From NCBI GenBank assembly GCA_947449735.1, contig CANFTB010000023.1, positions 1 through 64,000 of the forward strand: a stretch of 64,000 bases of DNA, given 5' to 3'. Numbering within the stretch: position 1 is the stretch's first letter; each line of letters begins with the position of its first letter. The notes under the pieces are model-generated. The model made no database searches and had not been told where the DNA came from. It saw only the letters and a program-made list of their open reading frames with translations. Positions 16,426 through 46,681 of the stretch are shown here, in pieces. A program made the translations under genes and the position numbers. The stretch comes from Chthoniobacteraceae bacterium (GTDB taxonomy: Bacteria; Verrucomicrobiota; Verrucomicrobiia; Chthoniobacterales; Chthoniobacteraceae).

Positions 16426-16620
16426 AAACAACAAACTTTCCCGAAGTGCCGAAATCTACTCCGCCACCTAACGGACAGCAATCCCAACATCCCCTCCCTC
16501 CGCGTTGACCAGATTCATCGCCACAAACCGCATTCGCGCGAAGAAGATCCGCTGCCACAAATCCTCTCCGCCTTCCGAGCCTCTTCAGGGAACCCTCGCT
16601 TGATCCCGGCGGCTCGGAAT

Positions 16621-16675: not shown

Positions 16676-17270
16676 TTATTCGCCAGGGAGGGATGCCGCC
16701 TCGGCCTGCAGGTTCGTGATCAGCGTGGACTTCACTCTCTCAAAATCGACGTCACCACCGAGCAGCAGCACCTGCTCCGCATCCCACACCAAGTCAACAT
16801 TGAGATCGTCGTCCGTGCCACTCCCCAAGTCGTAAGCCCCAGACATCAACTCCGGCGCGCCATAAATCGAAGCGTCCCCTGCTGTCTGGACACGACCGGC
16901 GAGCGTGAAACTCACGGGCTGGTCCAATCCAGGCACACGCTCAGCCAGCACGGAAAACTCCGAACGCTCACTAGCCGAAGCATCCTGAATGGTCTGATCC
17001 GCAGGGAGCCATCCATCCACCTTCTCCAGCGTGAGCGGCGGCGCCGGCGAAACAGAATCCAGCAGCCATGCGGAGCGGCCCTTGGAGACCACACGCTTGC
17101 CGCCAACCATCTCGCTCGCCCGCTCGGTAATCCAGTATCCGCTCCGGCTCTCTGGACTGCTTGAACCGTTCAGATGCTTCCCACTCACCCAGTACACCCA
17201 CCAAGCGGTGAAGGCGGAGGTCGTGCCATCCGAACCGGCGTTCACCACTGGCGGCGCTGATTCGCTGCTT
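16676..17270 (-). other. Unique C-terminal region of the giant protein
   Basis: After the last Ig-like domain (ending SAMLTVLGSS) come about 190 residues unrelated to the repeats. They start with an aromatic-rich stretch (TAWWVYWVSGKHLNG), continue with SRSGYWITERASEM and KGRSAWLLDSV, and finish in an acidic section with DLGSGTDDDLNVDLVWDAE. A functional end-cap, a processing site or a novel secretion signal are all possible. I recognise no known sorting domain. Confidence 0.6.
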
Positions 17271-26200: not shown

Positions 26201-29200
26201 AGTCTCCCGGGTCGCCGCGTTGCTCAGCAGGGCATCGTACTTGCCCAGTTGATCCAGAGAACTCACCGTCAGTCTGAGCGTACCCGAGTTTACCCCGGAA
26301 GCGGAGCTACCCTCGACGAGCGGCACCCCGTTCCTGCGCCATTGGTAGGTCACGCCCGCGGGAGGTTCAACCAACGTAAGGCTCGCGGTAGCGCCAAGCG
26401 CCAGCGCGCCGGCAGGCGACTGAACCAACGCAAGGTTGGAAGCCGGTGGCAGTAGTTTCGCGACAGCTATATCCACGACGCCCGGCGCCTTGGTTCCTTC
26501 AGCATCCACTGCGAGAACGGAGATTCTCTTGATGGAGTCGGTTTCGGAATCCGGCACGAGAAGCTTGAGCACGCCATCCGAGGAGAGCTGAATCCAGCTT
26601 TCGAGCGGGACTGAGGCAAAGGCCCATTTCACAGGCGCAACCAGTTCCGCCGGAGCGGCGAGCTTGAGATCCTTGATCGTGCGAGTGGGCGCAGTGAGGG
26701 GCGAATCCCCCGCGATCACCGACATGCTCGAGGAGAATGCAGGCAGCGTGGCCGGTTCCACCTTCAAGAGCACGGTCGAGTACGAGGTCCCGCTCGGGTT
26801 GGTGGCTGCAATCCGGATTTGGTAAAGTCCTTTTGCAGAGGGTGTGCCAAAGATCGTTCCATTCGAAACAGTCGTACCGGGAGGCAGAGCCCCATCCACA
26901 AAAACCGAGGTGGGACTGCCATTGGCCGTAATCGCGTACGCAGGAGAAAGAGAGGCTCCCTTCACTCCGGTGAACTGAAGCGGACTGGTGATCACTGGCC
27001 GAGGAGGCAGGACGTTGAGCGTCAACAGGCCGGCGCCCGTACCTCCATCATTGGTGGCTTCCACTGCCACCGCATACGTGCCAGACGTTTGGACGACCCC
27101 GGAAATCAGGCCGTTTGACGGATTGAGAGTCAATCCCTCAGGAAGGCTGGCACCGTTGCTGGTTCCTGGTGCGTTAAACCGGTAGGGGTCGTAGGAGGCA
27201 GTCAACTGGTAAAGGAACGCGTCCCCGACCACTAGGCTCTGGCTCAAACCCTCCTTGAAGCTGGGTGCAGGAACGCGGATGTCGATCGCCAAGTCCACGG
27301 TTGCCTCGCCTCCAGCATTGATGGCGGAAACCTGCACGGTCGAGAGCCTGACAGCCAGCGGAATGCCGCTGATCAGACCGGTCTTCGTATCCAATTCCAG
27401 CCCGCTGGGAAGCGCATCCACGGCGAAGCTGGTTGGAATGTTATCCGCAGTGATCTGGTACGTGAAAGGTGCATCCAGGTTGCCTCGCGCAGAGAGAATT
27501 CCTGAAGCAGGGACCCCTGTGAACTCCGGCTTCGGCGTCTTAACGGTGATTGCCAGCGTCGCACGCCCCGTCCCCGATGAGGAGAGGACGCTCAGATTCA
27601 GGGTATGCGATCCCAAGACTGTCGGGGTCCCGGAAAGGGTCCCCTTCCCGGCGTCGAAACTCAGCCAGGACGGTACGCCCTCGGCGCCATAACCGCTCAC
27701 GGCCACATCCGTGCTGACTTGGTACGAGAACGCCTTGTTAAGATACGCGGTGGCGCTAAGGGTGCTCGTGATCACGGGCAGCGCAGGCAAAACGTTAAAC
27801 GTCAGCTGGCTGGTACCGGTTCCCACGGTGCTGACCGCGCCAAGCGTTGCAATGGAAGTGCCGGCCACCAACGGAGTCCCGCTGATGACACCCGAAACCG
27901 TATCCAAGGTAAGACCGGAGGGTAATCGGGTAGCGGAGAAGCGTGTCGGGAAATTGCTCGCAGAAATCGTGTAAGTGAACGCGTCACGCACACGGGCGGT
28001 GACGCTGGTTGCACTGTCGATCACCGGCGGGCCCAGAGGGCCTTGAACCTCCACATACACGCTTCCCAAAACCGACTTCCCGGCCGGATCGGTCGCCTGC
28101 AACATCACATTCAGTTTGCCGGAAACGCCGGGTACAGTCTGGAGCACTCCGGTGCTGGCAAGGTTCAAGGACACGGACGGTAGCAAGTAACAGTCGGTAG
28201 GAATAGTCTCCTCGGACTGGGAGGCGCTCCGCCAGCGCAAGCGACAGCTCGCCGCTCCGCCGTACTCGATAAACTCCGCGAGGACATCAGTCGGAACGCC
28301 CGCAACGAGCGAAACCGGAATGTTCGCACCAGTCACCCAAGGGTCGTAAACCAGCACGCCGCCCACCCAGACACGGATCTTGTCGTCAACCCACGCGCTG
28401 AAGTTGTAGGACTCGGTGTATTTCGGCACGAGCAGTCCGGTCCAGCGGACACTGAAGCTGTCAGCCGGAACCAAGGGATCCGGGGCCTCATACCCCCAGT
28501 CAAAACTCACGCTGCTGTCGACGCGGGTCAGCAACAAAGTCCCGAAGTCAGTCCCGCTGTAGTATTCGCCCTTGATGCCGTTTTTTCTCTGAGGGTCGTA
28601 AGCTGCCGCAATCGACCACGCCACAGGCCGTGTGAGTCCTGCGGAAACGGGGATTTTCGAGGCAAGGTCAACGCGTACCTTGGACTCGTCATTCAAATCC
28701 GTGAGAAGAGTGGTTTCGAAGTTCGCCAACCCACAGGTGACTTTGACGTCGTACACGGAGGAACCGTCGTCCACGCGGGCATAGATAGGCATGAGACGGG
28801 AAGCCTCCGTCGCGGGCGGCTGAACGCTGAGCACGCCTTTGTCCGAGAGCGAAACCCAGGAAGGCAAAGTCTGGCCCGAGACAAGCGACCAGCTCAGGGC
28901 TGGCGTGCCCAAAACCTGAACTTCCGCAAGGCTGAGGTAATTGTTTCCGGCAAGCTGGACCCGGACATAGCGGCCCCGCGCCCCCTGCGTATCGATCGAA
29001 TATGAGGGATTCGGCATCACATTGATGCGCTTCTTCCAGGTTTCGCCATCCACCAAAGTCGAGGGAACAGCGTCACTTGCAACCTTCGCAAAAGGCTGCT
29101 TGGAAACGACCACCCAGTAATCGCTCAAACGCTCGGGAGCCATATCCATCCGGTTCCAAAGCACCACTTTCTGGATGTCCTGCTCAACGCCAAGGTCCAC

Positions 29201-35200: not shown

Positions 35201-38200
35201 GAGGGTCAGCCAGGACGGAATTTGCTGTCCGGCCTTGAATCCCCAGGTCCGCCGGCCGCCCGACAAAGTTCCGAGAGAACGGTTCAAGTCGACAATCGAA
35301 GCGCCACTCTGTCCCGCGAGTGCGTACAGCTGGTTCTCGAAACTCGAGGAGACAAGCCCCACAGTGTAACCGAGGGCGAAAGTCTTGTTCAGGGAATCCT
35401 TGGCCACCAAGGTCAGTTCCTGCTGAGCAACTCCCGCAGGAACGGAAAGGATTCCAGCCCCGGATACCGTTGCAGCCCCCCCTGCCCCGTTGAGAACCGA
35501 CCAGGATGCCGTGCCGGACAATCCGCTGTTCGCCGGAAGCAAGGCATTCAAATCCACCGTCCGAGCAGCCGTCATGGCCGCGCCAGTGAGTCTGCCGAGC
35601 GCACCCACCGGAGTCACGATCAGGGCAGTGCGGCGGAGCGTTCCCTGAACGCCCATCGCTTCCACGAAGAACTTCTGGGGAGTGACCACGGTCGCCGGCG
35701 GCTGAAGTGTCAGAACTCCGGCGTTTGAAAGGCTGATCCAGGACGGAACTTCCTGACCGAGTGCAAACGACCAGGCTCCCGGGAGATCGTCCATCCCCGC
35801 GAGATCCACCACGGTTGCAGTCGCCTGACCTGTCATCGCGTTCACAACCCGCGTGTAGGCGGGAGAAAACGTGTTCGCCACAACGTCTCCTGTGGCCTTC
35901 TTGCCACCGGCATCCGTCGCGACCACATAGAATTCACGCAATGCCGCGCTGCCAGCGGAAATGGTGAGCGACCCCGCATCGGACAAAGTCACCCCCTCCA
36001 AAGGCTGGGTCAGGACTCTCAGAGGAACCACCTGCTCGGACATCGTCGCGCTCCTCCAGAACAGCTGACAGTACGCCAAGCCACCGTACTCGATGAACTC
36101 GACCTTGATCGTGTGCGGCGTGCCGGCGACCAGCCTGATGCCGCTGCTGTCCGAATTCCCGCTCACGATCTGCGTTCCGTCCAGCCACACGGTGAACCCG
36201 TCGTCTGCCAGACCCCGGAAAGTATACGTATCCGTCACCGAAGGGGTCAGGGTGCCAGTCCATCGCACCGAGAACCAATCGCCAGACATTGAAGGATCCG
36301 GTGACCCGCCGCCCCAGTTGAAGTCAACGGCACCATCCTGGCGGGTCAGGACCTGAGTCTTGAAGTCAGCTCCCGAGTAGTACTCCCCTTTCAGACCGGG
36401 CGCATACGAAGTCCAATTGATCTTCCCGCTCAACCCAAGGCTGGCCGGAATCTTGTTGTTCAAATCCACCGTCAGCGCATCTGAGGAGGACGCGTCGCTG
36501 AGCAAATTCACGTGGAAATCACCCGTGGCGCCAACGGCCTTCAGCGTGACGGTCCGATACGTCTTGCTTGGATTCTGCGCATTGGCATCAAAAACTTCGA
36601 CGATGCAGTTCCCACCAGAATACTGCGCCCCAAGGGGCGGCTGGACGCTCAAAAGGCCCTTCTCCGACACCTGAATCCACTCCGGCAGGGATTGGCCCGC
36701 CAGCAACTGGAAGACGTAGTTGGAAGAATAGCCGTAGAAATTATTCTGCGAGAGACTGTATGCAACCCCTCCACTCTGGCCCGGCAGCACGTTCAACGTC
36801 ACCATCGAGGGTGCATTGACCACGTTGAACATGACCCAACCGCTGACCGAACGTCCCGAAGCATCGGTCACCGTGATCGGCAACTCCCAGCCCCGCACCT
36901 GCCAGTTCTGGTACATCGTCACCGTGCCGTCCGGCGACAAACCGGCTTCTGGAGTCGTCTGCCCGGGCGTATAGGCGAAAGTCAGCGCGCCGGAAAGTCC
37001 GAGGTTTGCGGGCAGGCTGTCTTTGAGTGCAAACTTGACCCCTCCCGAGGGGTTCGAGTTGCCCGTGAACATCAGGGCAAAGGCGGTCGATTGGACCTTC
37101 ACCAACCCGTAAACCTTAGCCAGAGGAAGGGAGCGGTCGGTCAATTCCACGAGGTAATCCCCGTCGAATCCCGAGGCTGTCGCGGACGGACGGAGCGACA
37201 AAAGCCCCCCCGAAGTCACACTCATCCACGACGGGACGCTCTGTCCCGAGGCCATCGCCCAAACGCGGGAACGGCTGTTTCCAAAACCATAGAACCCGTC
37301 TTCACACAGATTCATGACCGTGGTGTCGGACTGACCCGGGGCGACATGGACCGTCCGTTCAAACCCGGGCAGAACAGTCTGCACGGCAATCCTCCCCAGG
37401 AACGCTTTCCCAGCAGAATCGGTGGCGACGACAGGCACTTCAGTGGAAAGCGGCAACGAACTGTTCACCGTCAGCAATCCATTGGAAGACACGGATACAG
37501 ACCCGTCGGCCGTCGAACCGGACCAAGTGAGCGTTCCGGATGCCCCAAGTGAAGCAGGCAGGAAGCCGGCAACGCTTGCGCTGTAACCGCCCGCCTTGCT
37601 CGCATTGCCCAGAAGGGCGCCAGTGAAATCCACGCAACTTACCGAGATCTTGCCTGCGGTCGTCGGAAGCGCAGACCCCGCGCCGACGCGGGTCACCTGC
37701 ACATAGACGTCCTGACTCAGCTTTGCAGTGCCCCCGGGGGGCGCTGCGCTCAACACACCCGCAGAAGAAAGCGTGAGCCATGCCGGAAGCTGCTGGCCGT
37801 CGGCAAACGTCCACGTGTGACGGTCGCTCGATCCAGACACCGGAAGGCTCGGAATCGCATTCAAATCCAGCGATCTTCCCTGCCCGGGGGCAGCACTCAG
37901 AGCGCCGGTGAAGCTGAAATCCATCAAGCTCACCGACAGTCGCAAAGAGCCAGTCGCCTTGCCGCTACCATTCTCAGCGCCGATAGTGACGTCATACAAA
38001 CCGGTGGTGTCCACCGAACCACTGATCAAACCGCTCGTCGTATTCAGCGTCACGCCGCGGGGCAGTCCCGTGGCCGAGTACACTGTCGGTGTATTTGAGG
38101 CGACGATCTGGTAGGAGAACGGCTTACCGACCAGTGCATTCAGCGCCAAGGCTCCCGAGATTACCGGAGTTGGAGGCGGCAGAATCTGCGCGCTAAGCGA

Positions 38201-41200
38201 CACGCCCGTCGCACTCGCAGTCGCCGCCGTGCTCAGCGTCACGCCAGTCGTCCCGCTGATCGCCGTGATCTTTGTCCCGGACGCAATCCCTGTCCCGCTT
38301 ACCGGCATGCCCAAGTACAGACCCGTCGTGGAACCCACACGCAACTGCGTGCTGCCACGCGTCACAACGGCTCCATTCAAAAGCACGCCGCTCCCGCCGG
38401 TCACCGTCACGTCCACGCTCCCAAGCGTGAAAGGTGACATCCCCGCCGTTGGCGCGCTCCCCACGTAGAAACGATACACGCCGCTCGCCGCGCCCGCCGT
38501 CGGTTGCACGCTCAACACTCCGGCCGTGGTCATCGATACCCAGCTTGGCAACGACGCCGTGTCTCCGTAGAACGACCATACGCTCGTCATCCCCGGCATG
38601 CCCATCTGGTTTCCTGAAGCCACATCCAGCGTGGTAGCCGCGGCTTGTCCCGCCGTCGCACTCAATGCCTTGTTGAACGACGGCGATACAAGCTTGTAGT
38701 TCACCAAGCCGTACACCTTCTTCGCGCTCGCGTCCACTCCCTCCAACACCACCGTTCCGGAGCTCACTCCAAAGCTATAAAGACTCGACCAAGTCAATGT
38801 CCCACCAGAATTCAGCGTCCAAGAACTCAACGCCCACTGGTCCTGCCACGACGAAAAACCCCAGTTCGCCGCTCCACTCAACCCGGCACTCGCCGGCACG
38901 GCTGCAGCAAGGTCCAAAACGGCCGCGCCCCCCTGCGTTTCCCCGAGCAAATCTGTCGTAAAATGCGCCCCGATCCACGCCACCTTGACAATGCTCGAGT
39001 AGGAGGTCGTCATCCCCGGCATCGTCTGGGTGTAACTCAGATAAAAGAACCGCGTCCCGGCATTCGCCGCAGTCACCGCCGGCAAAATCAACTTTCCTGC
39101 GGAGCTCACAGTCACACCCCGAGGCAGGATTCCAAGGTCCGAAGGCACAGACCACGCACGACTGCTTCCCGTCCCCGGCAGCGGAGGCATCGAAGAAAGT
39201 GTCTCCAAATCCACAGTCGTCCCCTCCCCCACCCCAATCAGAGAGGCCAACGGCACAATCGTCGGACGGAACAGATTGAGCGCAACCTTGCCCATCAAAG
39301 TCGACCCATTGCCATTGTCCACCTGCACCAGCACGTCCCGCGTCCCCATCTGTGCGGAGGTCCCCACCGAGAGCAACCCGGACGGACTCAAGCTCAACCC
39401 CATAGTCAAGTAAGACTCCTGCCCGGAAGCGATGCTCCAGTTGCGCACCGTTTCAAACCCAGCCACCCCAGAAGCCTGCGGGGTCAAATCCAAACTCGCC
39501 GGACTGCTCTCCGAAATGGCGCCCAAGTCCACACTGAAAGCCGCGCCAAACGACAAAACAGTCGCATTCACCTTCGCGTACCACGGTCCCAAACCGGAAT
39601 TTGAGCTATCAACCACCTTCACGAAATACTCAGACGTTTCCTCTGGCGTGCCAACCGGAGGCGCCAGGGACAGACTGCCCGTGCCCGTCAACGTCACCCA
39701 CTGCGGCACAGCCTGAGCGTCCACAAACGACCAAGTCCGTGAGCCCTCCCACCCCGGAACAGACCAGGCAAGCGAGTTCAAGTTTAACACCGCCGCCGCT
39801 GACTGTCCGGGCAGTGCCGCCAACTGCGCTGAGAACGACAGTGAATACGCCGACAGCGACACCCCAAGCAACACCGAGTGCTGGTTCACATCCTGCACCT
39901 TGACCGCAAACTTCTTCGACAGCGCTGTTCCCTGAGGAACCGCGACCACACCCTCGGAACTAAGCGTAACCCCGTCTAGGTCCGCCTCAGTTGCCCGCAC
40001 AAGCGACCAGGTCTTCGTCCCCACCAAAGCCTCGGCGGAGGACAGCGCTCCATCCAGAGTGAAACTCAATCCTCCCTGCTGGTTCGCATCCCCGATCAGG
40101 TTCACACGAAACGTCACAAAATCCACATTCACCTGTCCGGTCAGAGTGGTGCCTCCAGCAGTCACCTGAACCAGCAGATCTTTCGTTTCAGATTTTGTTC
40201 CTGCGGGCGCCTGTATACTCAACGACCCAGCCTCTGAAACCGACACCCACGACGGGAGGTTTTGTCCCGGTGAAATCGCCCATACCTTCGTGCCTGTCAG
40301 CTCGGGACTGTCGGTCAGAAGGGTGTTCAAATCGAGCTGAGACGCTCCCTGCAGTCCGATATCGGCCAGCATCTCACCCGTGAAAGAGACGGTCGCAGGC
40401 GGTCCAGTTTCACTCTGGGAAGCCACGAGCGCCACGCCCGTCGCACTGGAGGTTGCCGCCGCGCTCAACGTCACGCCGGTTGTCCCGTCGATCGCCGTGA
40501 TCTTTGTCCCGAGGGCAATCCCCGTACCGCTCACCGGCATCCCCACGTACAGGCCCGTCGTGGAACCCACTCGCACCTGCGTGCTGCCCCGGTTCACCAA
40601 CGCTCCGTTCAGCAGCACCGCGCTCCCGCCGGTCACCGTCACGTCCACGCTCCCCAAAATACTCGCGGGCATCCCGGCAATTTGCGAGCTCCCCACATAC
40701 AACCGATACACTCCGCTCGCAGCCCCTGCCGTCGGCTGCACGCTCAACACTCCGGCCGAGGTCATCGACACCCAGCTCGGCACCGACGCCGTGTCGCCGT
40801 AGAACGACCATGCGCTCGTCATTCCGGGCATGCTCATCTGGTTTCCAGAAGCAACATCTAGCGTCGCAGCCTCTGATTGCCCCGCCATCGCACTTAGCGA
40901 CCTGTTAAAAGTCGGAGTCACGAGCTTGTAATTCACCAAGCCGTACACCTTCTTCCAGTTCGAATCCGTACCCTCTACCACCACCGTCCCCGTGCTCACT
41001 CCGAAATTATAATAGGTCGACCAAATCAACGAGCCGCTTGGGTTCAGAGTCCAAGAAGAACTCAACATCTGTGCGTTCTGCCAGGTCGAGAAACTCCAGT
41101 TTACCGCTCCACTCAGCCCCGCGCCCGCAGGCACAGCATTCCCCAAATTCAGGCCCACTCCACCTGCCGGTTGCGTTTCGCCGTTCAAATCCACCGCAAA

Positions 41201-44200
41201 ATGCGCCCCAACCCATGCCACCTTCACCATGCTCACGTACGAGGAGTTCATCCCCGGCATCGCCTGCGTGTAGCTCACATAGAAGAACCTCGCCCCGGCA
41301 TTCACCTCCGACACAGCAGGCAAAGTCACCTTTCCCGTCGAATCTAAGGTCACTCCACGCGGCAGGACCCCAAACCCGGAAGGGACAGACCAGGTCCGGG
41401 TCCCCATTGGAGGGGGCATTGACGGAATCGTCTCCAAATTAACGGTTGTCGCACTCTCCGCTCCAATCACAGAAGCCACAGGCACCAGCATCGGATAGAA
41501 TAGGTTCAACGCCACCTTCCCCACCAGCGTCTGCCCTGCGCCATTATCCACCTGCACAAGCACGTCGCGGATCCCCGACATCACATAAGAACCGGCAGAC
41601 AACACCCCGGCCGGGCTCAAGCTCAGCCCCGTCGTCAGGTAAGACTCCTGTCCGGAAGCGATGCTCCAGTTTCGCACCGTTTCAAACCCAGGCAGGCTCG
41701 AAACCAAGGAAGAAAGATCCACACTGGCGGGACTGCTGTCAGAAACTGCGCTCACATCGGCGCTTAATTCAGACGTGAAACCCGTCACCGTCTCCGTAAT
41801 CCTCCCATAAGCCAACTGCGCATTGGGATTTGAAGTATCCAAAACAGCCACGACGTAGTCCCGCTTCCCGGTCGGAGTCCCTGAGCCAGGAGACGCAGAA
41901 AGCACTCCGCCTTCACTCAACGTCAGCCACGCCGGGATGCTCTGACCTTCCACAAAGGACCAAACGCGGGTCGAAGCAGACCCCCCTATGCCTGAAGGAA
42001 TCGTGTTTAAATTCAACACCGAGGCAGACGTCTGTCCCGGAACCACACTTTGACTCGCACTGAGCGACATGTAAAAGGAGCGCAACTGCAGACTCCCCAC
42101 GACGGATTTTCCGCTCCCGTCCACAGCCTGCACCAGAACGGCCTGGTCCACAGCGAAGCCCGGAGTCACAGTCAAACCGCCGGAGGCACTCAGGCTGATA
42201 TACCAAGGGACAGAGGTGCCACCTCCGGACACAAATGACCAAGTCAGCGTTCCCGAGAGCCCCGAATTTGCGGGTACCCTACTATTCAAATCCACAGCCC
42301 CCGAGCTCTGGTTCTGGTCAAAGAACATCGCCGTACTGAAGGCAATCACGGGCACAGTCACCTTCCCGTAGTAGGTGTAAGGGTACGCCGCGGAGCCATC
42401 CACAACGGACACGATGTAATCACGCGTCGCGGCAGGCGTCCCGGCAGGAGGCGAAAGGGTCAAGCTACCGCCCTGCGTCAAACTCAACCACGCGGGCACA
42501 TCCTGACCTTCGACAAGCTTCCAAATGCGGGTCAAATCAGTCCCCCCAACCATATATCCGGCGGAGCCATTCAAGTTTTTGACGACTGCCGAGGACTGCC
42601 CGGCAACGACGCTCTGTGCGGTGGAGAAGGAGGGGTACACCGAAAGCACCCGTACACTTCCCTGAATGGTCTTGCCGCTTCCGGAGTCATCCATCGCTTG
42701 CACCAAAACCGTCTGGTCGACCGACATCCCTTGATTCACGTTCAGCGTACCCGAGGAGGACAAAGTCAGGTACCAGGGGATGTAGGCTCCCGAATCATTC
42801 GAGAACGACCAGTTGATCGGACTGGCAAGCCCCGAGTTCGCGGGAAGCTTGGCATTCAAATCCAACCCGAATCCGCTCGGCTGATTGGCGTCCAAGACAA
42901 GGGCTGCGCCAAAATCCAGCGCATTCAAGGACACTGTTCCGAAAGCCTTTGTCCCCATGGACCCCGTCGACGTCTTGTCCGTGACTTGCACGTAGTATTT
43001 TCCAGACCCAACACTCTCTCCGCTCGAGGGCGCGGCTGTCAGCGTCCCGCCCGAAGTCAACGTGAGCCAACCGGGGATGGTTTGCCCGGGGACAAATGCC
43101 CAATTCCGGTTCGCCACAATGCTCGGGACGCTCCAGGTATTCTGAACCTCACCCAGGCTGTTGAAATCCAAGGTCACCAGAGTAGAGCTCCCCTTGGTAA
43201 GATTCACGGACCGGGTAAACAGACCGTTAAAAGCGGTTATGGAAACCGCTCCTGTCACCTGTTTACCAGTCGAGTCAGTTGCAACCACCCCTACATCCGC
43301 GGATCCAATGTTGCTGTAAACGCTTAGCGTGCCCGCCGACGAAAGATTCACACCCCACGGCGCAGGTGAGGAAGCAAAACTCCACGAGACCGGCGCAGTC
43401 AGGGCACTCCCACTGGGAAGCCGGGCATTCAGGTCAACAGACAAGCCGTTAGCAGAATAAAGGTCTCCAATCAGGCTAGCGCGAAAATCCACCGTGTTAA
43501 CACTCAACGAAGCGTACTGCTTCCCGGTACTCATACCCGAGCCTCCGGAGAACTCGATAATCAGCTCAGCTGTTCCGCCCGCAAAATCAGCCGGAACAAG
43601 AACAGAAACGACACCTGCTGAAGAGACCGTCAGCCACTCCGGAACGGTCTGTCCTGCGGAAAAGGAGTACACCCGCGAGCTCGTCTGCCCCATTCCAGGG
43701 TAGTAGTTCGAAGAAGGTGCCAGCGTCTCCAAATCCAGAGTTGAAGCCGTTTGGCCGCCCTTCAAAACAGAAAGCGCAGCTGAAAAAGCCGGCATCACGG
43801 CCTTGACCGAGATGCAGCCCGTCGCCGTGTGCCCTGCATCATCCGAAACCGAAACATTTACCAGACTGCTGCCGCTAGAGTAACCTGGCACAGTCAAGAG
43901 ACCCTGCGGACTTACCGATCCGATATCCATCCCCATCCCAAGGGGAAGAGACGCCAGCTTTTGCCATGTAAACGGTGCCACGAGACCAGCGGATGCCGGC
44001 AAAAGCCTGCTCAAATCCAGAATCATACCTCCCATTTTGTATGAATTACCCACCAAGGCACCGGTGAAAGCCACCGGCCTGATCACCATCCGGTAGTAAG
44101 TCGACGACGCCATCTGGTTTCCGGTGTCCAGCGACTGAACGACCAGCTCTGTCGGGTCCGCGAAACTCCCCGAAGGCGCGTTCATGGTCAGACGACCGGA

Positions 44201-45922
44201 GGTGCTCAACTGAACCCAGGAAGGAACCGTTTGCCCCGCTGTGATCCCCCATCGAAGCGACCCCATACTGTAAGACGCCGCCCCCTGCACCCCCTGGTCA
44301 TTCAAATCATAAGCGACTCCACCAGCCTGCCCGGGGGCAACCGCCACATCGATCGCGTTGGTGGCCGCCACCGCCCTCACCGAGAGGCCGCCTGTCACCG
44401 AGTGATTTGCTTCGTCGGAAACGACTACCTGCAAATCCACCTGAGCGTTCGCCCAAGACGCCGCCGTCAAAATCCCAGAGGGCGAAAGCGAGATCCCCTG
44501 CGGCAGCGTTTGTCCGGACAAAAGCATCCAGTTCTTCGTGCCAATCAGGCCAGCGGCAGCCGGCAAACTGGCATTGAGGTCCTTCGAAAGCAGGGCAGGT
44601 TCAAATTGCGCGGTATTGATCAAAACAGATGTGGCGAAACCAACGGCGTTGAGCTTCACGATCCCGTAAGACGTCACATTGCTGACAGGCATCCCCGGCA
44701 TCTGATATCCGGACATCGTGCCGACCATCTGCACCACATACTCCTCCGTGAGCGGAGTCGAACCCGCGGGCGGGTTCACGGACAGCACCCCGGACGCGGA
44801 GAGCGTCATCCATTCAGGGAAAGTTGCACCTGCAGGAACCGACCAGGTTTTTCCTGACAGCGATCCCGACATTGGGTTCGCGAGAACAGATTCGCCCAAG
44901 TCCACCGTGGACGGCGAGGACTGGCCGCGGGCCACATTGACCGTCCTGTCAAATGCCGGCGTGAAAGCCGTGTACGCGACGTCCCCTACAAATTGTTTCG
45001 AGGTCGCATCCGTGACCCTGACCGACACATTAGCCGTGAAAGCCATGCCCGCCATCATGTTCGAGGTCAAACTTCCACTCTGCGAAAGATTCAGCATCCC
45101 GCCGGGCGTGAGGATCTCCCAACTCAAGGGCGGAGTCGCCCCCAATCCAGCGGGCAAGTACGCGCGGAGGTCCACCGGCCCGGTCTTGGCGGTGCTGGTG
45201 AAAACCGAGGAGATGAAATCGCTCACGCTCACCATCAACATCCCGGAAGACTTCACGGCCGTCGGGCCATAGTTTCCATCGTACACCTCGACAAAGAGCA
45301 GGGAAGTCGCCCTCGCAGCCCCTTGCGGGGGCTTGGCGCTCGCCCTCCCCTGTGACGAAAAACTGATCCAGGCAGGCAGTTCCTGTCCGGGCACAATGCT
45401 CCAGACGCGCGACGCGGAGGTGCCAGGCAGCGCCGGCCAAACCTGAACCGAGTTCAAGTCCACCTCGCTGTTTGAAGCCTGCCCCGCCAGGGTCGATAGA
45501 ACCGAGCCGAAAGTCGTCGCGACCAGCCGCAGCGTCATGGTTCCGCTCGAGGAATGCCCGGCGCCATCAGTCGCAATGACGGACAACGACAACGAGTCGC
45601 TGGTGTAGGGTGGCGACGGAACAACCGTCAATACCCCGGAAGCATTGAGTGAAATTCCACTCCGCGCAGGGGGTGATGAAAACGCCCAAGTCACCGATCC
45701 AGTCAGGCCGCTGTCGCTGGGGAGCTTTGTGTTCAGGTCAAACGTATTACCTTCCGTTCCCGTAGGATAAGCGGACATCACCACGGTTCCGTCCAGACTG
45801 GCCGCCGCGTGCGCCGGGTTGCCCCCAAGGCATAGAGCTAGGGCGATAAGCACCAGGGCAAGAACGGGCCGAAACCGGTGCCTGAACCCGCCAAAAGGAG
45901 TTAGAAAGTCAAAAGTTGTCAT
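16676..45922 (-). CDS. Giant secreted repeat protein, 9748 aa
   Basis: One uninterrupted 29,247-bp reading frame covers 46% of the window and encodes roughly 1 MDa. The ATG at 45922 is preceded by AAGGGG seven bases upstream. Residues 1-40 are a Sec signal peptide (FRPVLALVLIALALCLGG...AHA-A). About 56 beta-rich repeats of 90-100 aa (residues ~41-5950) alternate between types A and B, with one F5/8C and two PA14 modules inserted inside units. Then come He_PIG domains (~5958-6391), one more repeat, about 31 Ig-like domains (~6491-9557) and a unique C-terminus (~9558-9748). Cysteines are very rare, as expected for an extracellular fibre. I see no LPXTG, PEP-CTERM, dockerin, T9SS tail or autotransporter barrel. 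I infer an adhesin or cell-surface/matrix scaffold; the export and anchoring route is unknown. Confidence 0.93.
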   Translation of the reverse strand: MTTFDFLTPFGGFRHRFRPVLALVLIALALCLGGNPAHAAASLDGTVVMSAYPTGTEGNTFDLNTKLPSDSGLTGSVTWAFSSPPARSGISLNASGVLTVVPSPPYTSDSLSLSVIATDGAGHSSSGTMTLRLVATTFGSVLSTLAGQASNSEVDLNSVQVWPALPGTSASRVWSIVPGQELPAWISFSSQGRASAKPPQGAARATSLLFVEVYDGNYGPTAVKSSGMLMVSVSDFISSVFTSTAKTGPVDLRAYLPAGLGATPPLSWEILTPGGMLNLSQSGSLTSNMMAGMAFTANVSVRVTDATSKQFVGDVAYTAFTPAFDRTVNVARGQSSPSTVDLGESVLANPMSGSLSGKTWSVPAGATFPEWMTLSASGVLSVNPPAGSTPLTEEYVVQMVGTMSGYQMPGMPVSNVTSYGIVKLNAVGFATSVLINTAQFEPALLSKDLNASLPAAAGLIGTKNWMLLSGQTLPQGISLSPSGILTAASWANAQVDLQVVVSDEANHSVTGGLSVRAVAATNAIDVAVAPGQAGGVAYDLNDQGVQGAASYSMGSLRWGITAGQTVPSWVQLSTSGRLTMNAPSGSFADPTELVVQSLDTGNQMASSTYYRMVIRPVAFTGALVGNSYKMGGMILDLSRLLPASAGLVAPFTWQKLASLPLGMGMDIGSVSPQGLLTVPGYSSGSSLVNVSVSDDAGHTATGCISVKAVMPAFSAALSVLKGGQTASTLDLETLAPSSNYYPGMGQTSSRVYSFSAGQTVPEWLTVSSAGVVSVLVPADFAGGTAELIIEFSGGSGMSTGKQYASLSVNTVDFRASLIGDLYSANGLSVDLNARLPSGSALTAPVSWSFASSPAPWGVNLSSAGTLSVYSNIGSADVGVVATDSTGKQVTGAVSITAFNGLFTRSVNLTKGSSTLVTLDFNSLGEVQNTWSVPSIVANRNWAFVPGQTIPGWLTLTSGGTLTAAPSSGESVGSGKYYVQVTDKTSTGSMGTKAFGTVSLNALDFGAALVLDANQPSGFGLDLNAKLPANSGLASPINWSFSNDSGAYIPWYLTLSSSGTLNVNQGMSVDQTVLVQAMDDSGSGKTIQGSVRVLSVYPSFSTAQSVVAGQSSAVVKNLNGSAGYMVGGTDLTRIWKLVEGQDVPAWLSLTQGGSLTLSPPAGTPAATRDYIVSVVDGSAAYPYTYYGKVTVPVIAFSTAMFFDQNQSSGAVDLNSRVPANSGLSGTLTWSFVSGGGTSVPWYISLSASGGLTVTPGFAVDQAVLVQAVDGSGKSVVGSLQLRSFYMSLSASQSVVPGQTSASVLNLNTIPSGIGGSASTRVWSFVEGQSIPAWLTLSEGGVLSASPGSGTPTGKRDYVVAVLDTSNPNAQLAYGRITETVTGFTSELSADVSAVSDSSPASVDLSSLVSSLPGFETVRNWSIASGQESYLTTGLSLSPAGVLSAGSYVMSGIRDVLVQVDNGAGQTLVGKVALNLFYPMLVPVASVIGAESATTVNLETIPSMPPPMGTRTWSVPSGFGVLPRGVTLDSTGKVTLPAVSEVNAGARFFYVSYTQAMPGMNSSYVSMVKVAWVGAHFAVDLNGETQPAGGVGLNLGNAVPAGAGLSGAVNWSFSTWQNAQMLSSSWTLNPSGSLIWSTYYNFGVSTGTVVVEGTDSNWKKVYGLVNYKLVTPTFNRSLSAMAGQSEAATLDVASGNQMSMPGMTSAWSFYGDTASVPSWVSMTSAGVLSVQPTAGAASGVYRLYVGSSQIAGMPASILGSVDVTVTGGSAVLLNGALVNRGSTQVRVGSTTGLYVGMPVSGTGIALGTKITAIDGTTGVTLSAAATSSATGVALVASQSETGPPATVSFTGEMLADIGLQGASQLDLNTLLTDSPELTGTKVWAISPGQNLPSWVSVSEAGSLSIQAPAGTKSETKDLLVQVTAGGTTLTGQVNVDFVTFRVNLIGDANQQGGLSFTLDGALSSAEALVGTKTWSLVRATEADLDGVTLSSEGVVAVPQGTALSKKFAVKVQDVNQHSVLLGVSLSAYSLSFSAQLAALPGQSAAAVLNLNSLAWSVPGWEGSRTWSFVDAQAVPQWVTLTGTGSLSLAPPVGTPEETSEYFVKVVDSSNSGLGPWYAKVNATVLSFGAAFSVDLGAISESSPASLDLTPQASGVAGFETVRNWSIASGQESYLTMGLSLSPSGLLSVGTSAQMGTRDVLVQVDNGNGSTLMGKVALNLFRPTIVPLASLIGVGEGTTVDLETLSSMPPLPGTGSSRAWSVPSDLGILPRGVTVSSAGKLILPAVTAANAGTRFFYLSYTQTMPGMTTSYSSIVKVAWIGAHFTTDLLGETQGGAAVLDLAAAVPASAGLSGAANWGFSSWQDQWALSSWTLNSGGTLTWSSLYSFGVSSGTVVLEGVDASAKKVYGLVNYKLVSPSFNKALSATAGQAAATTLDVASGNQMGMPGMTSVWSFYGDTASLPSWVSMTTAGVLSVQPTAGAASGVYRFYVGSAPTAGMSPFTLGSVDVTVTGGSGVLLNGAVVTRGSTQLRVGSTTGLYLGMPVSGTGIASGTKITAISGTTGVTLSTAATASATGVSLSAQILPPPTPVISGALALNALVGKPFSYQIVASNTPTVYSATGLPRGVTLNTTSGLISGSVDTTGLYDVTIGAENGSGKATGSLRLSVSLMDFSFTGALSAAPGQGRSLDLNAIPSLPVSGSSDRHTWTFADGQQLPAWLTLSSAGVLSAAPPGGTAKLSQDVYVQVTRVGAGSALPTTAGKISVSCVDFTGALLGNASKAGGYSASVAGFLPASLGASGTLTWSGSTADGSVSVSSNGLLTVNSSLPLSTEVPVVATDSAGKAFLGRIAVQTVLPGFERTVHVAPGQSDTTVMNLCEDGFYGFGNSRSRVWAMASGQSVPSWMSVTSGGLLSLRPSATASGFDGDYLVELTDRSLPLAKVYGLVKVQSTAFALMFTGNSNPSGGVKFALKDSLPANLGLSGALTFAYTPGQTTPEAGLSPDGTVTMYQNWQVRGWELPITVTDASGRSVSGWVMFNVVNAPSMVTLNVLPGQSGGVAYSLSQNNFYGYSSNYVFQLLAGQSLPEWIQVSEKGLLSVQPPLGAQYSGGNCIVEVFDANAQNPSKTYRTVTLKAVGATGDFHVNLLSDASSSDALTVDLNNKIPASLGLSGKINWTSYAPGLKGEYYSGADFKTQVLTRQDGAVDFNWGGGSPDPSMSGDWFSVRWTGTLTPSVTDTYTFRGLADDGFTVWLDGTQIVSGNSDSSGIRLVAGTPHTIKVEFIEYGGLAYCQLFWRSATMSEQVVPLRVLTQPLEGVTLSDAGSLTISAGSAALREFYVVATDAGGKKATGDVVANTFSPAYTRVVNAMTGQATATVVDLAGMDDLPGAWSFALGQEVPSWISLSNAGVLTLQPPATVVTPQKFFVEAMGVQGTLRRTALIVTPVGALGRLTGAAMTAARTVDLNALLPANSGLSGTASWSVLNGAGGAATVSGAGILSVPAGVAQQELTLVAKDSLNKTFALGYTVGLVSSSFENQLYALAGQSGASIVDLNRSLGTLSGGRRTWGFKAGQQIPSWLTLDAMSGTLAAAPPAGTPAGAQNYLVEVYDADSSEFPVAKKMGSVSVGVTAFRTSVAWTREATLNVDLTSKLTANSGLGTGVTWSLGTPASGAGVSVSSSGTFTAVNTTSLQQDFLVKAVDSTGKAVLGSVFVNAPSINNSVILPAVVAAAGGSLADLNIVPGISLGYPAGTRQWAPSAGTTLPSWMTLSASGVVTFSPAATDSDAVVFVDQTWIDTANSFQKVTIALRCVVSGFNIPLTNDYNLSASIDLKTKLPSGTGLGSGVVWSFAPTSVITTPTWATLTSAGSFTVSRYQSFAGPVLVKGVDSANKTVVGAVYVNSVNPNGRAQLSAEAGFGPVTYDLNSTQDLPISGTNRVWSPAYGQELPGWISLTSSGQLTLNPSASDTSATVLLDEAYRDANGNGGVQRVFIQCNVVAFNASIAGAYDVPADRTLDLTTELPSDSGLNSELTWSFVDSSNYTVPSWLTLSTNGLLTVPQNRSWLGTVLVRAVDSANKSVIGSVLVNTPSVNGRVVLGALVDQSGGTVINLNTVSTLGQYATPLTRRWTASKGQDLPSWVQLSPNGTFTLSPTSSSSASSILVDQTWVDAGGAPGRVTYELKLAPSSFRIAVAGDNWGENLTADLNQRLPAGLALGSGATWSFVQTPGVTIDTRISLSAQGVLSLPAYNYISQEVAVKVVDSTGRTLNGTVSVWAYNVNGYSLVTALVGQEGGTEVDLNTVTGMPLWGGASNRTWALNLSQSFPSWIQMTSAGVVRMTPSVGDQPVVLVLDQGYRDWAGNAQVTKVQVAFYPTVFSRSVVGDNWMGIQYTEDLKTKLPASAGLNGSVTWSSPTIRGVDNTSYISMDAGGTLTLWWYNWIKKDFVVRAVDSTGKTVYGQIRANMMYINGSGVATVEAGRAGGTVVDLNALPDIPLAGVASSRTWKSVFAQTLPSWASLSASGQLTLSPSATDAPVTLFFQQDGVNASGAAQTYLIKVACGGVSFRGNLVGDNWLGQQINGNLSREFGSSLGLSGDVTWAAETPAWMNWNGSVWLNPDGFYWLGGWADFRNEFFVKATDSKGNFVRGSVRVNGTYPRGNATLIASVSKTGTAFDLNSTVELPLAGLAGTQKWSPAFAQVMPSWATLTEAGVLTLNPAATDAPQTLFLKETGLTDSNGNTVTYTVKVTCGGTVFSSPFFGDNWSGVQLTKDLSALLPATAGLGSGVTWSLVTPSGGQAPDWRFNLSAEGVLSLSQYQAIQQDVFVLATDAAGKKAFGVVRVNTPHIDNGATLSASISGTTGTVLNLNDVPNVGMSGLVGSRVWSLTPGQALPSWLTLSSSGSLTARPVSGTKPATLYFDQVGRIADGTSQRSTIKVTVNPLSIPTAAELFVDMQEFTSGTKVFDLNPMASDLPALAGARTWAITQGQDSAVTSGLTLSAAGEVTVSTGVSSGQLRNLFVEVTNASGAKFTGKVVLNFVNATNLAANAPLGQTQGTSVNLRTLTANEWGAGFFSWSLSPGSPDLPAGASLNASTGELRFPAATAANLGIKPVYVDLNYKDIYGAISSRTYRVNWNVVNLVKSQFVDWGYQAGISVDLPELLADDAGLSGSLTWEYVSGQRADFLSQWNLSSGGFLSVPQSRAFGTAVVKVTDSSKGTPKTMLAAVELVGSSNIWLEPGLSVTAGQTSPTTLNLSNWWPMSAEYSATWSLVGSINMPTEGFSIGSTGMVSATLPSTVPSGRGFVFYNQTYNELLPAGSPEGTQPAIRYRTARISTVVTGGTGVNLASSSVRADSAIVSVSSTTGLSAGMSISGSGLFPGTVIKSVNGSNSLTLSKPARYTSSGVQLLAMPAWTAPSTLLFSGNILADVGASTAVATDLNTLVQANAALKGTKSWSFSSGQDLPWWMGVSSTGTFSLQPPAWETSSVTDVYFDVTDASGVKGSGKLTVNVLEPMFAPLIPVLLGKSTPTVLDLAPLAASFTSGPNYALNKAARQSSEYGPASRAVDGNTDGQWNGGSVTHTEGQQGAWWEVDLGVEQDIQKVVLWNRMDMAPERLSDYWVVVSKQPFAKVASDAVPSTLVDGETWKKRINVMPNPSYSIDTQGARGRYVRVQLAGNNYLSLAEVQVLGTPALSWSLVSGQTLPSWVSLSDKGVLSVQPPATEASRLMPIYARVDDGSSVYDVKVTCGLANFETTLLTDLNDESKVRVDLASKIPVSAGLTRPVAWSIAAAYDPQRKNGIKGEYYSGTDFGTLLLTRVDSSVSFDWGYEAPDPLVPADSFSVRWTGLLVPKYTESYNFSAWVDDKIRVWVGGVLVYDPWVTGANIPVSLVAGVPTDVLAEFIEYGGAASCRLRWRSASQSEETIPTDCYLLPSVSLNLASTGVLQTVPGVSGKLNVMLQATDPAGKSVLGSVYVEVQGPLGPPVIDSATSVTARVRDAFTYTISASNFPTRFSATRLPSGLTLDTVSGVISGTPLVAGTSIATLGAVSTVGTGTSQLTFNVLPALPVITSTLSATAYLNKAFSYQVSTDVAVSGYGAEGVPSWLSFDAGKGTLSGTPTVLGSHTLNLSVLSSSGTGRATLAITVKTPKPEFTGVPASGILSARGNLDAPFTYQITADNIPTSFAVDALPSGLELDTKTGLISGIPLAVRLSTVQVSAINAGGEATVDLAIDIRVPAPSFKEGLSQSLVVGDAFLYQLTASYDPYRFNAPGTSNGASLPEGLTLNPSNGLISGVVQTSGTYAVAVEATNDGGTGAGLLTLNVLPPRPVITSPLQFTGVKGASLSPAYAITANGSPTSVFVDGALPPGTTVSNGTIFGTPSAKGLYQIRIAATNPSGTSYSTVLLKVEPATLPAFSSSMSVIAGDSPLTAPTRTIKDLKLAAPAELVAPVKWAFASVPLESWIQLSSDGVLKLLVPDSETDSIKRISVLAVDAEGTKAPGVVDIAVAKLLPPASNLALVQSPAGALALGATASLTLVEPPAGVTYQWRRNGVPLVEGSSASGVNSGTLRLTVSSLDQLGKYDALLSNAATRETGPVKTLSQEIRLSKIPVELATPLASVTVLKGKSLQWSGFSVSGDDLKYSWSRAVGGLPTSVSTAASSTLTIPAVALVDSGIYQVKGYNEFSGVEFTSVTSSATLKVLDTISIKKSPADVGPLKPGASATFQVEATGGDPSVEGGGLRFQWFIDGSPATGGISARVSGGTAYSTLTMSSVSGDDSGSKISVRVFQRDPDTQAVLESVSPQNAATLTVFQPVQLTKDLENLSVDLGSPVSLSVGVAVSSGSVAYQWTKNGAALDGKTQPTLSFTAAESSAGAYSVAVTNGAGSLTSATAALSVRMPASIVSQPSSKTVNRLSSVRFRVEAAGYAPLKYQWRKDGVPLQDGGQVSGAKTEQLTIASADAVNEGDYEVQVSNGVGTPAISSPASLTVSNDVKILTNPADLSLKAGTSSTFTVSAEGKSLRYQWRRNGVEIKGASAPSLTVKPTLEADSADYDVLISSGPLTVASQSARLEVYENVRITEQPKSSLELIPVEGSDPAAASYMFRVVAASKGDATYQWYKNGAVMAGNTGASLTVDVTDLTTADRYKVKVTSTKQAGTLLQLGSEMSAEVQAALMRPVSIVNTPSAQVSQTVFAGAGASMSVTAEGGGKLVYQWQRERGGRWSSIPGAASASLSLSDLLVSDAGTYRVTVSNERGSQSRDFSLTVLEKNIITDNPRNQAVNPLNTAVLKVAATGKNVTYQWRRGGALLQNSDRIEGANSPVLRISDVESGDAGFYDVVVSHAYGVSVSTSAELRLNEAVKIETQPAAPTLIEGGKATLVVKASGTLDLDHASGVPSLHYVWRRNGVPLNVLNDVRDRPVFSILNANATDHSGIYDVIVSNIVGNVPSKPVTVNVLTKVEIISHPASLSVSRGEGAVFSVLASGSPQIASGKLKYQWYFDKTALVDVLGKISGAATDTLLIASADPGSAISDGSNGKYWVLVSNDVNSAASTPALLTVLSPPFITKQPETLVVNPGDGARFSVLAKGTPPLSYEWYKLVEGETVGERLTLASASTAELILENVQERAAYWAVVRNVYGGTPGLDTSLRADLTLIEDLKITEEADSSSGSVSGALAGESLNGTSLPPAQLPKKRGETAEIAFTLKIADQAGVVIGYRWRKNGVPLSDSVAGRVTGSDTKILTISNLDLTDAGLYDLVISKYSGGAEKSRLVTKATVLTIQPRPVISGLADTLSRPGTRVFFNPTVVSGGTPASLKFRWFKNGSLLATATRTFEILSVSATDAGTYAFEAEDDNDTIAGRVEIKLSVASPLSVEALPEVLERDIRSRIIFEAKTSSNAADGVLRYQWRYNSVAIRGATRSTFELPSLTLAQAGFYDVVVSNNFERVASTSCEVKPQSLWKILQHPAPYLTVNPNSPIKLEVKLNRTDKVAYQWIKGIGRGAQMLAGQTSSTLLIPSSSISDEGFYMVLVTTPIGRMSSAMARVIVNKPVEITQHPNSQTCKPGDPVTFTVKATGTGPLKYQWYHDGVAISGATRDQLSLSTVSYLDSGAYTVGVSNLVTSELLSSAATLLVDIPVSIVKQPLDQRVEQGSQVTLSAEVSGPGSISYQWRRYGVEISGGSGVLSPTDSKVIRLVRNNVSVVDSGLFDLVVSNTVNGRTVGTTASRKALLQVLEPPRILVPPVNESVATSGLVNRSAKFRIVATGTGPLIYSWTKAGQPDLELSRTDTLEIPEATASSLGDYTVTVMGPSGSSVFATVVLASEAASAVDVFSLQPVSVVGIEGAEAKPIVLTAAVKTGYRISGWQRRITSGGTLQSGSLSGGGTLTLAAPKESDSGVYWAVALPDPSTGAADEPSYLSTPANVFVNVSDPLYKAGFRTSPEWGKWDRVWSGPAEQNAWLTTEQGVRWSQQNYFVPEGGSAAFRVFPIGDGLTVKWIRTVTAVGSGTAPVTNEVPGETGLTLTLRNLKAADGSNTTTRIAYTAVVMVPDGQGGVVARQSVPFTLYVLPLPVITDQPLAMQLTYPARAAGPADNAVLSIGGIFTNDTHFQWFFRQKGSEYWVPVPGGSAGSATGSAYYINGVRKMDEGDYRVEITNTVGAITSDSGYVKVLDPVAVSLVPTVNAGTAVVTEVDPGDTLTLTANVGDARETGSLSDGSAFTFYSSRYERGPYAVLAGTSSAGRSVVITPGTCSISGILESDELYYKVSTIGKVNGVVESVPVKVKVHDPVGFAAGTTISSLGLAQGDALRLKVAATGYNPVYKWYRKPSASSPASAWTLLSQTGPELVIPAVTAGASGSYGVEISNDFSRANAAGVVSFAKGTAAPAVNAREVARVAVKAPPAAKLAGASGNETIPVTATQDSLLTLTAQVSDLSGTSVRYQWRKDGVALAGEAGTVLVMASEEPAALTLTRLKAAASDAGRYDILVSNSFGVSQSNPAQVTVNLKPVIGVQPQPVLSSEKGTAAFRVEATGSGTLSYAWSRMLDDGMNTWRTVGGNEPTLILKDLKSGDDLAQIKVEVTGAGGVVTSNVVGLRVVTPTDVIIVTQPNSGASLTLKTTDSNVKLVAVADELKAAATLNYVWRLNGIPLLPLGTKLTSQRVTDPTKAEYGKFIIQHVISQVTNSSDGVYDVLVDNGAVFATSAGVQVTVDPFIEGAVDIPTKVSPGDGVRMQVKVRGAATAAPGAFSYKWFKDGAQVSDGAGVTGSATAILAIEGVTPAQEGAYSVRVTSPTGGQTTSSPVTMEVASPVVITTQPSIAGPVKAGTSANRFTLSVVASGGAPITYQWLKNGAPITAGTVSSSTGPSVVTGGSSASLSVSNVGVADAGIYQVKVSNNSSFAMSDLVTVAVDEALGVKIISPSKVSRGDSVNLIADVSGTGEITLQWCKNGATIQGGTSSQLRINAADSSDNGNYTVVATNVSTQETKTSEPVTLDVVMIPLIKVHPVSRTVSSGPVVFSVVVNSSSTPHYKWLRDGSVVGTDSPYLKLMSPLQSGVYTVEIRNDANSGLDDAPVVTSAMLTVLGSSESAPPVVNAGSDGTTSAFTAWWVYWVSGKHLNGSSSPESRSGYWITERASEMVGGKRVVSKGRSAWLLDSVSPAPPLTLEKVDGWLPADQTIQDASASERSEFSVLAERVPGLDQPVSFTLAGRVQTAGDASIYGAPELMSGAYDLGSGTDDDLNVDLVWDAEQVLLLGGDVDFERVKSTLITNLQAEAASLPGE
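17270..26450 (-). repeat. Array of ~31 Ig-like domains in giant protein
   Basis: About 31 units of 90-110 aa follow the pattern 'I..QP....V..G....L.V.A.G...L.YQWRRNG..L.G.......L.I..V...D.G.Y.V.VSN..G'. The Trp of YQW is nearly invariant, as in bacterial I-set-like immunoglobulin domains, while the two disulfide cysteines of classical Ig folds are absent. The last third is more divergent: some units have KWIR, FQWFF or YKWYR. This is the C-terminal third of the protein. Confidence 0.85.
26740..28050 (-). repeat. Five He_PIG domains in giant protein
   Basis: Five consecutive putative-Ig (He_PIG) units of about 85-90 aa are marked by F.Y.I.A...PT.F.A..LP.GL.L...TG.ISG.P...G...V. Examples are LPSGLTLDTVSGVISGTP and LPEGLTLNPSNGLISG. 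They separate the A/B repeat array from the Ig array. A single extra He_PIG unit lies alone at about 37920-38180, directly after duplication copy 2. Confidence 0.85.
28190..28582 (-). other. PA14 module 2 inside an A repeat
   Basis: Residues about 5781-5911 form a PA14 domain. It starts GIKGEYYSGTDFGTLLLTR, continues FSVRWTGLLVPKYTESYNF, then WVDDKIRVWVGGVLVYD and a final AASCRLRWRS strand. PA14 domains usually bind carbohydrate. The flanking A-type repeat is split: its PVAWSIAA strand precedes the module, and SLNLASTGVLQ follows it. Confidence 0.9.
28905..29355 (-). other. F5/8 type C (discoidin) module inside a B repeat
   Basis: Residues about 5524-5673 read as an F5/8C domain. It starts NYALNKAARQSSEYG, has ASRAVDGNTDGQWN, then WWEVDLGVEQDIQKVVLWNR and a closing GRYVRVQLAGNNYLSLAEVQ. 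This family commonly binds sugars or lipids. It interrupts a B-type repeat just before that unit's Trp strand, which resumes as ALSWSLVSGQTLPSWVSL. Confidence 0.92.
29740..31120 (-). repeat. Diverged third copy of the internal duplication
   Basis: The protein encoded here follows copies 1 and 2 unit by unit (ELFVDMQEF, then GARTWAITQGQ, KVVLNFVNA, LPAGASLNASTG, and the GLSAGMSISGSGL module), but identity is much lower. The unit that follows it (GNILADVGAS) matches the unit after copy 1 (GEMLADIGLQ), so the ancestral block was probably longer than 1.37 kb. Confidence 0.65.
31140..33390 (-). repeat. Four-fold A+B pair array, ~564-bp period
   Basis: Four consecutive A units begin with a G-D-N-W motif. 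The reverse-complement codons for DNW start at 33361, 32801, 32237 and 31673, so the spacings are 560, 564 and 564 bp (188 codons). The B units between them share a V/LDQ..RD or equivalent segment. The regular spacing suggests local tandem amplification of one A+B pair. Confidence 0.8.
36015..36400 (-). other. PA14 module 1 inside an A repeat
   Basis: Residues about 3175-3303 form a PA14 domain. It starts GLKGEYYSGADFKTQVLTR, then FSVRWTGTLTPSVTDTYTF, GLADDGFTVWLDGTQIV and a closing LAYCQLFWRS. The flanking A unit has its KINWTSYAP strand before the module, and GVTLSDAGSLTI after it. Its placement matches that of PA14 module 2, about 2600 residues away. Confidence 0.9.
38185..39552 (-). repeat. 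Internal duplication, copy 2
   Basis: About 1.37 kb (four A/B units plus a terminal GSTTGLYLGMPVSGTGI module) is closely similar at protein and DNA level to 40415-41780. Over the roughly 54 bp encoding GFETVRNWSIASGQES and flanks, I count three mismatches. It is followed by a lone He_PIG domain. Confidence 0.9.
40415..41780 (-). repeat. Internal duplication, copy 1
   Basis: This is the partner of 38185-39552, displaced by about 2.23 kb. The shared protein landmarks in order are ETVRNWSIASGQESYLT, RDVLVQVDNG, LPRGVT, KVYGLVNYKLV, DVASGNQM, MPGMTS, WSFYGDTAS, VLSVQPTAGAASGVYR and KITAI-GTTGVTLS. Units before the two copies also resemble each other, so the event may have involved the full 2.2 kb. 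Confidence 0.9.
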
Positions 45923-46623: not shown

Positions 46624-46681
46624 GCCCGGAAAATGCAAGAGGCGCAACCCGCAATCCTGAATCTAACCCTCTCCAAAAATT

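Follow-up and report, generated by a model that had tools for sequence, protein, structure and literature searches.

A giant verrucomicrobial protein with an immunoglobulin-like stalk and a C-terminal domain so far found in a single genus

Background

By what route could a bacterial protein of about 1 MDa reach the cell surface and stay there, if none of the known export tails can be recognized in it? The question is raised by a 64,000-nucleotide stretch of DNA from a Chthoniobacteraceae bacterium (Verrucomicrobiota; assembly GCA_947449735.1, contig CANFTB010000023.1, positions 1 to 64,000), hereafter the window, which carries a single gene of 29.2 kb for a protein of 9748 amino acids (aa). 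To our knowledge, the way in which giant proteins of the Planctomycetes-Verrucomicrobia-Chlamydiae (PVC) group cross the outer membrane and remain on it is unexplained. A first-pass annotation, made from the sequence of the window alone, had proposed an adhesin or matrix fibre, and its reading as an adhesin-like or fibre-like protein of that size is consistent with the calculated mass (1.007 MDa) and with the predicted extracellular-type domains. The product is acidic and almost free of cysteine (pI 5.1, 0.17% Cys). Judged by isolate names, the habitat may be freshwater lakes.

16676..45922, minus strand: giant gene, ATG start, 9748 aa plus stop codon, no internal stop

The gene far exceeds the 5-kb threshold for giant genes quoted in the available text of PMC5177795; its size is, however, far from a record. 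As far as the available parts of the sources go, one planctomycete has 45 giant genes (PMC5177795), four of the six top bacterial phyla for huge proteins belong to the PVC group (PMC11573180), an Omnitrophota protein reaches 39,678 aa (PMC10066038), and proteins of up to 85,800 aa are mentioned (PMC12057145); the PVC group itself has proteins that exceed the present one in length. The window protein resembles these giants, which include the surface-protein class of Reva and Tummler, in being an extracellular-type product of one very long gene in a group enriched in such genes (PMC11573180, PMC5177795, PMC10066038, PMC12057145). It differs in that its C-terminal third is a fixed module ending in a genus-specific tail, while the heads are largely different, and we found no such arrangement in the available parts of this literature. 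What is new is therefore this module on largely different heads, and not the size of the protein.

Results and discussion

A stalk-plus-tail module shared by sister giants

On sequence comparison, the window protein is conserved over its last ~3,260 residues, a module that is visible only through its relatives and that consists of a stalk of immunoglobulin-like (Ig-like) beads and a C-terminal domain (CTD).

16679..26470, minus strand: stalk-plus-tail module, residues 6485-9748 (one BLASTP segment, collinear with the C-terminal ends of 10/10 other giants; bead register)
17243..26470, minus strand: stalk of 29 recognizable Ig-like beads, residues ~6485-9560 (Pfam Ig_3/I-set; iteration of hidden Markov models, HMMs)
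16679..17206, minus strand: CTD, residues 9573-9748 (176 residues), predicted small beta-barrel plus helix, ending in Gly-Glu

For the comparison we used ten other giants, picked for their long frames among 26 other copies of the CTD and drawn from seven genomes of the genus, including the host genome itself. All ten align collinearly with the window protein up to the C-terminal end, at 27-49% identity (BLASTP). In seven of them, one BLASTP segment places the residues of the window protein from 6484-6525 to ~9748 on the last 3,062-3,216 residues, and the module starts at residue 6484-6525 in seven of the eight giants that are long enough. In G007C10 (3723 aa) the aligned segment extends to 3,601 residues and includes He_PIG domains, and in the truncated short giants G011C134 and G011C68 nearly the whole remaining length aligns to the module.

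The beads also keep their places. We placed each Ig bead of the window protein separately and counted it as in register if it lay no more than 200 aa from the median offset; in eight giants 28, 28, 28, 27, 25, 21, 20 and 12 of the 29 beads were in register, against a chance expectation of ~3 by our own estimate, made without simulation. The array thus behaves like a fixed rod, unlike a tract whose repeats turn over freely; this is least clear in G002C10 (12/29). Bead-by-bead conservation of this kind is unusual in repeat arrays, and it suggests that the length of the rod or its individual beads matter.

The heads that precede the module are largely different in sequence, He_PIG-type stretches excepted. 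The paralogue in the host genome (G000:C6, truncated at the end of its contig and no shorter than 7311 aa) has a head of PATR repeats and laminin-G domains, and a comparison of the window head with this head (4,011 residues used, 7311 less 3300) gave no high-scoring segment pairs (HSPs). The head of G002C10 contains PATR, RCC1 and laminin-G. A head like that of the window protein occurs in genome G011 on a separate contig (38% identity over the first 500 residues). Eight of the ten sister giants run off their contigs at the 5' end. Also truncated at its contig end is the giant G004C1 (G004:C1:12113-52081), which is 13,322 aa or longer and whose head contains PATR, NHL, laminin-G and RCC1.

The C-terminal domain

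No known anchor or export tail had been seen in the protein at first pass. This holds for the known tails, as neither an autotransporter barrel nor PEP-CTERM nor type 9 secretion system (T9SS) sorting domains were found, but the C-terminus does carry a conserved domain, and the statement is better worded as ‘no known tail’. The last 230 residues of the giant had matches in 11/57 genomes (own included), all of them genus members. A profile built from 17 copies of the CTD matched 11 of the 12 genus genomes and none of the 201 other genomes of the order (213 in total; best 14 candidates scored per genome), and in an evenly spread sample of the phylum the host genome alone was matched (1/387, that is 0/386 others; best seven candidates scored per genome). 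The one genus member that lacked a match was G001, whose giant runs off its contig.

Across 17 copies the CTD has 14 invariant columns, and the final two residues are Gly-Glu or Gly-Asp in 18 of 19 copies (all but G006:C168). The copies sit at the end of frames that are either long or cut by a contig end. At E up to 1, Pfam recognized none of ten copies, and the window copy was without a match in NCBIfam. By these searches, the CTD is so far found in one genus only and appears to lie outside the families of both libraries. Nor did the titles and abstract openings of the papers listed on giant surface proteins (12 of 5,702), on giant proteins and sorting domains of Verrucomicrobia (12 of 62 for the latter) and on freshwater Chthoniobacterales yield a published account of this tail.

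Domain content of the head

In the head (residues 1-6484), ~50 cadherin-like repeats are joined by two PA14 domains, an F5/8C domain and a He_PIG region.

45803..45922, minus strand: putative Sec signal peptide, residues 1-40 (read by eye, cut AHA|AA)
29468..45763, minus strand: cadherin-like repeat region, residues 54-5485 (HMM iteration, structure model, Foldseek)
36056..36403, minus strand: PA14 domain 1, residues 3174-3289 (Pfam PF07691)
28922..29311, minus strand: F5/8 type C (discoidin-like) domain, residues 5538-5667 (Pfam PF22633/PF00754)
28202..28585, minus strand: PA14 domain 2, residues 5780-5907 (Pfam PF07691)
26888..28045, minus strand: He_PIG region, residues 5960-6345 (Pfam PF05345; limits by eye)

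Pfam thus recovers the He_PIG, Ig-like (Ig_3/I-set), PA14 (twice) and F5/8C parts that had been proposed, which together form an architecture of extracellular repeats; PF05345 matches five stretches of its C-terminal half. The signal peptide proposed at first pass also agrees with our reading, by eye, of residues 1-40, which resemble a Sec signal ending in AHA|AA.

The cadherin-like region consists of ~50 units of ~95 aa with a few other modules interposed. The earlier annotation had divided its repeats into types A and B. Repeats are indeed present, but HMMs started from an A seed and from a B seed converged on largely identical sets (55 and 53 units in the whole protein), and we therefore rejected A and B as separate families in favour of one homologous family. 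Identities between units of the same and of opposite parity (0.307 vs 0.314 in one block, 0.330 vs 0.302 in another) say little for an A-B dimer as the unit of amplification.

We modelled two adjacent units with AlphaFold2 from 23 such pairs of the giant protein (mean pLDDT, the predicted local distance difference test score, 91.1). Foldseek returned 181 PDB matches at E <= 0.001, the best being protocadherin-15 EC5-7 (E 1.1e-6, probability 1.00), and cadherins filled 42 of the 50 rows listed, in a count by hand. In these rows the template modelling scores (TM-scores) relative to the query were only 0.23-0.38, the two-domain arrangement not superposing, and the likeness to cadherins is therefore shown for single domains. 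By Foldseek the head repeats resemble tandem cadherin domains, and they differ from known cadherin, bacterial cadherin-like and He_PIG arrays in their low two-domain TM-scores and in being only partly covered by Pfam (He_PIG, RibLong).

Residues 1-500 had relatives in 6/40 genomes of the family, every one of them within the genus. A short module with the motif GM.[VI]SG[TS]G occurs three times in the giant, near residues 1794, 2538 and 5353, and by eye a stretch resembling it is present in the C22 giant of the host genome.

C-terminal classes and export systems of the host genome

We examined the C-termini of eleven frames of the host genome that are rich in Ig or autotransporter domains, taking frame lengths from stop to stop. 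Ten of the eleven fall into four C-terminal classes, each present in two or more proteins.

CTD: C23, C6
Domain plus terminal Ig: C1 (4752 aa), C22 (4808 aa), C5 (2029 aa)
Third tail: C7 (4479 aa), C5b (1498 aa), 40% identical
Autotransporter barrels: C2, C52, C61

The eleventh frame, C8 (1056 aa), has Ig domains at its end and was left unclassed. The domain-plus-Ig tail had matches at E <= 0.001 in 33/57 genomes; among the matches listed, those outside the genus covered only the terminal Ig part, and near-full-length matches came from at least 8 of the 12 genus genomes. At least two of the four classes, the CTD and the C1/C22/C5 tail, accordingly look genus-specific at the level of sequence. 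No relationship of the C1/C22/C5 and C7/C5b tails to the CTD was detected (hhalign probability below 1%, with alignments of three and two rows). Autotransporter-barrel frames number five in the genome and reach 8874 aa, the barrel giants being G000:C2:42447-69071 (8874 aa) and G000:C52 (6668 aa), stop to stop.

None of the known tails was found in the window protein in scans of Pfam and NCBIfam, and they were rejected as candidates. Pfam gave no PF03797 autotransporter barrel in either half. NCBIfam, a library that we take to include models of T9SS sorting domains, gave no match to any family in either half at E up to 1; PEP-CTERM was likewise absent from the NCBIfam results for both halves and from the Pfam list. 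SprA (PF14349) had no match in the genome, with 14 controls likewise silent. The genome has three secretins: a GspD-like one with an adjoining GspE, one beside GspE/GspF, and one near PilM. The first of these, at G000:C21, may belong to a type 2 secretion system (T2SS), of which the secretin and GspE were the two parts sought there.

Proposed role and alternative explanations

Our preferred explanation, to which we assign a probability of roughly 0.65, is that the protein is an adhesin of the cell surface or matrix, ~1 MDa in mass and exported through Sec, with a variable head, a fixed Ig rod and a genus-specific barrel tail that places or holds it at the outer membrane. The protein would leave the cytoplasm via Sec, as suggested by the signal peptide read by eye and by the domain architecture. 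The head, with its ~50 cadherin-like beads, PA14, F5/8C and He_PIG, would probably be the part that binds sugars or surfaces; the 29 Ig-like beads would form the fixed rod; and the small-barrel CTD would direct the giant to the outer membrane or hold it there. The simplest route would be Sec followed by the T2SS, with the tail serving for recognition or retention. At 176 residues, and present in 11 of the 12 genomes of one genus, the CTD offers a small, testable handle on the export and retention of giant proteins. More tentatively, and with rather low confidence, we suggest that the genus has a surface display system of its own, in which the 29-bead rod and barrel tail would be a chassis for varied heads and the Gly-Glu/Asp end would be read by an undescribed outer-membrane partner.

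The strongest rival, which we consider unlikely but worth serious weight, is that the common C-terminus reflects mere ancestry: an ancestral Ig giant was duplicated, its heads grew or were replaced, and the tail is simply the last bead, with no role in sorting. Several observations fit this history, and two of them weigh directly against our preferred explanation. Seven of eight heads have segments in common with that of the window protein (between 4 and 8 HSPs per head, He_PIG-like in the best cases), and G003C14 and G003C82 are paralogues alignable along 4,200 residues, with no clean split at the head. The stalk, moreover, is homologous bead for bead, and the clades of the CTD in part track head type. 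Mere ancestry is in turn opposed by the invariant columns of the CTD and its nearly constant Gly-Glu/Asp end, as well as by the grouping of 10/11 own-genome giants in four shared C-terminal classes, as expected if C-termini matter.

It is doubtful that the CTD is a cargo signal for the type 11 (Slam/DUF560) outer-membrane translocon or an analogue of it. Cargo proteins of this system (TbpB, HpuA, HphA), whose barrels are treated in the available text of PMC12282271, similarly have a small C-terminal barrel, here predicted, beneath a variable effector part. They differ in that the CTD has no Pfam match, in that an Ig stalk of ~3,000 residues separates the head of the giant from its barrel, and in that the genus has no detected DUF560 partner: DUF560/SlipAM (PF04575) matched 0/12 genus genomes and 3/40 family genomes, with 14 controls silent.

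Of similarly small probability is that the CTD is itself a small OmpA-like outer-membrane barrel that anchors the giant. A small beta-barrel is the predicted fold; the model had no Foldseek match at E <= 0.001, and the CTD sequence had no relative in the PDB (best E 0.14). As for type 5 autotransporters, PATR repeats occur in the heads of three sister giants and the genome encodes the barrel frames of 8874 and 6668 aa described above, whereas the window protein lacks the PF03797 barrel and has the CTD as its tail.

Frame, assembly and selection

The 9748-codon frame is real and intact, in line with the uninterrupted single gene described at first pass. Its G+C content at codon positions 1/2/3 (0.56/0.53/0.70) is a coding pattern, and the frame is not due to chance. 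Tandem Repeats Finder (TRF) reported no tandem repeats within the gene, so that the ‘dense repeats’ noted earlier exist at the protein level and not at the DNA level. No exact direct 40-mer is duplicated on its coding strand, and only five 30-mers are. The sole large DNA self-match (1,341 alignment columns, 75.8% identity) corresponds to a segmental duplication inside the gene, window 40428-41754 against 38196-39525. The repeats have thus diverged, which makes the mis-assembly by repeat collapse that had been raised as a doubt unlikely, and we rejected it. That the gene is an artefact of assembly or annotation is very improbable: although the source genome (4.18 Mb in 67 contigs, 89.6% complete, the window being the start of a 77.6-kb contig) is unclosed and contig ends cut 8/10 sister giants, the gene has no 40-bp direct exact repeat and a lone, diverged duplication, its downstream neighbour is the same in two relatives, and its ratio of nonsynonymous to synonymous substitution rates (dN/dS) is below 1.

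With dS near 2 the dN/dS values are rough; they are ~0.24 for the last 1,665 codons (stalk plus tail) against the relative in G011 (53% amino acid identity) and 0.33 for 968 N-terminal codons in a local alignment to G011:C62 (40% identity). The earlier suggestion that selection maintains the gene agrees with these values.

Neighbouring genes

The next gene downstream of the giant encodes a protein of 223 aa.

15763..16434, minus strand: 223-aa gene, no Pfam family

This gene also adjoins a CTD gene in G011:C134 (83% identity) and G006:C168 (69%). The ratio of nonsynonymous to synonymous differences per site (pN/pS) is 0.14 for the 223-aa neighbour and 0.50 for the stalk plus tail, and the giant thus evolves much faster than its neighbour.

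Promoter and terminator patterns were sought at both ends of the giant gene, and none were found. Further downstream lies a full-length sigma-70 type factor (window 14518-15396, minus strand; Pfam regions 1.2 to 4). A gene for a MarR-family regulator, followed by HlyD-like and AcrB-type efflux genes, lies on the plus strand (window 46048-50924), divergently from the giant gene. The contig start carries a 15-bp tandem repeat of 8.3 copies (window 1-124), and at L002:9320-13659, ~23 kb from the giant gene, there are genes for Poly_export/SLBB polysaccharide export, for a chain-length/kinase-type protein and for a beta-barrel.
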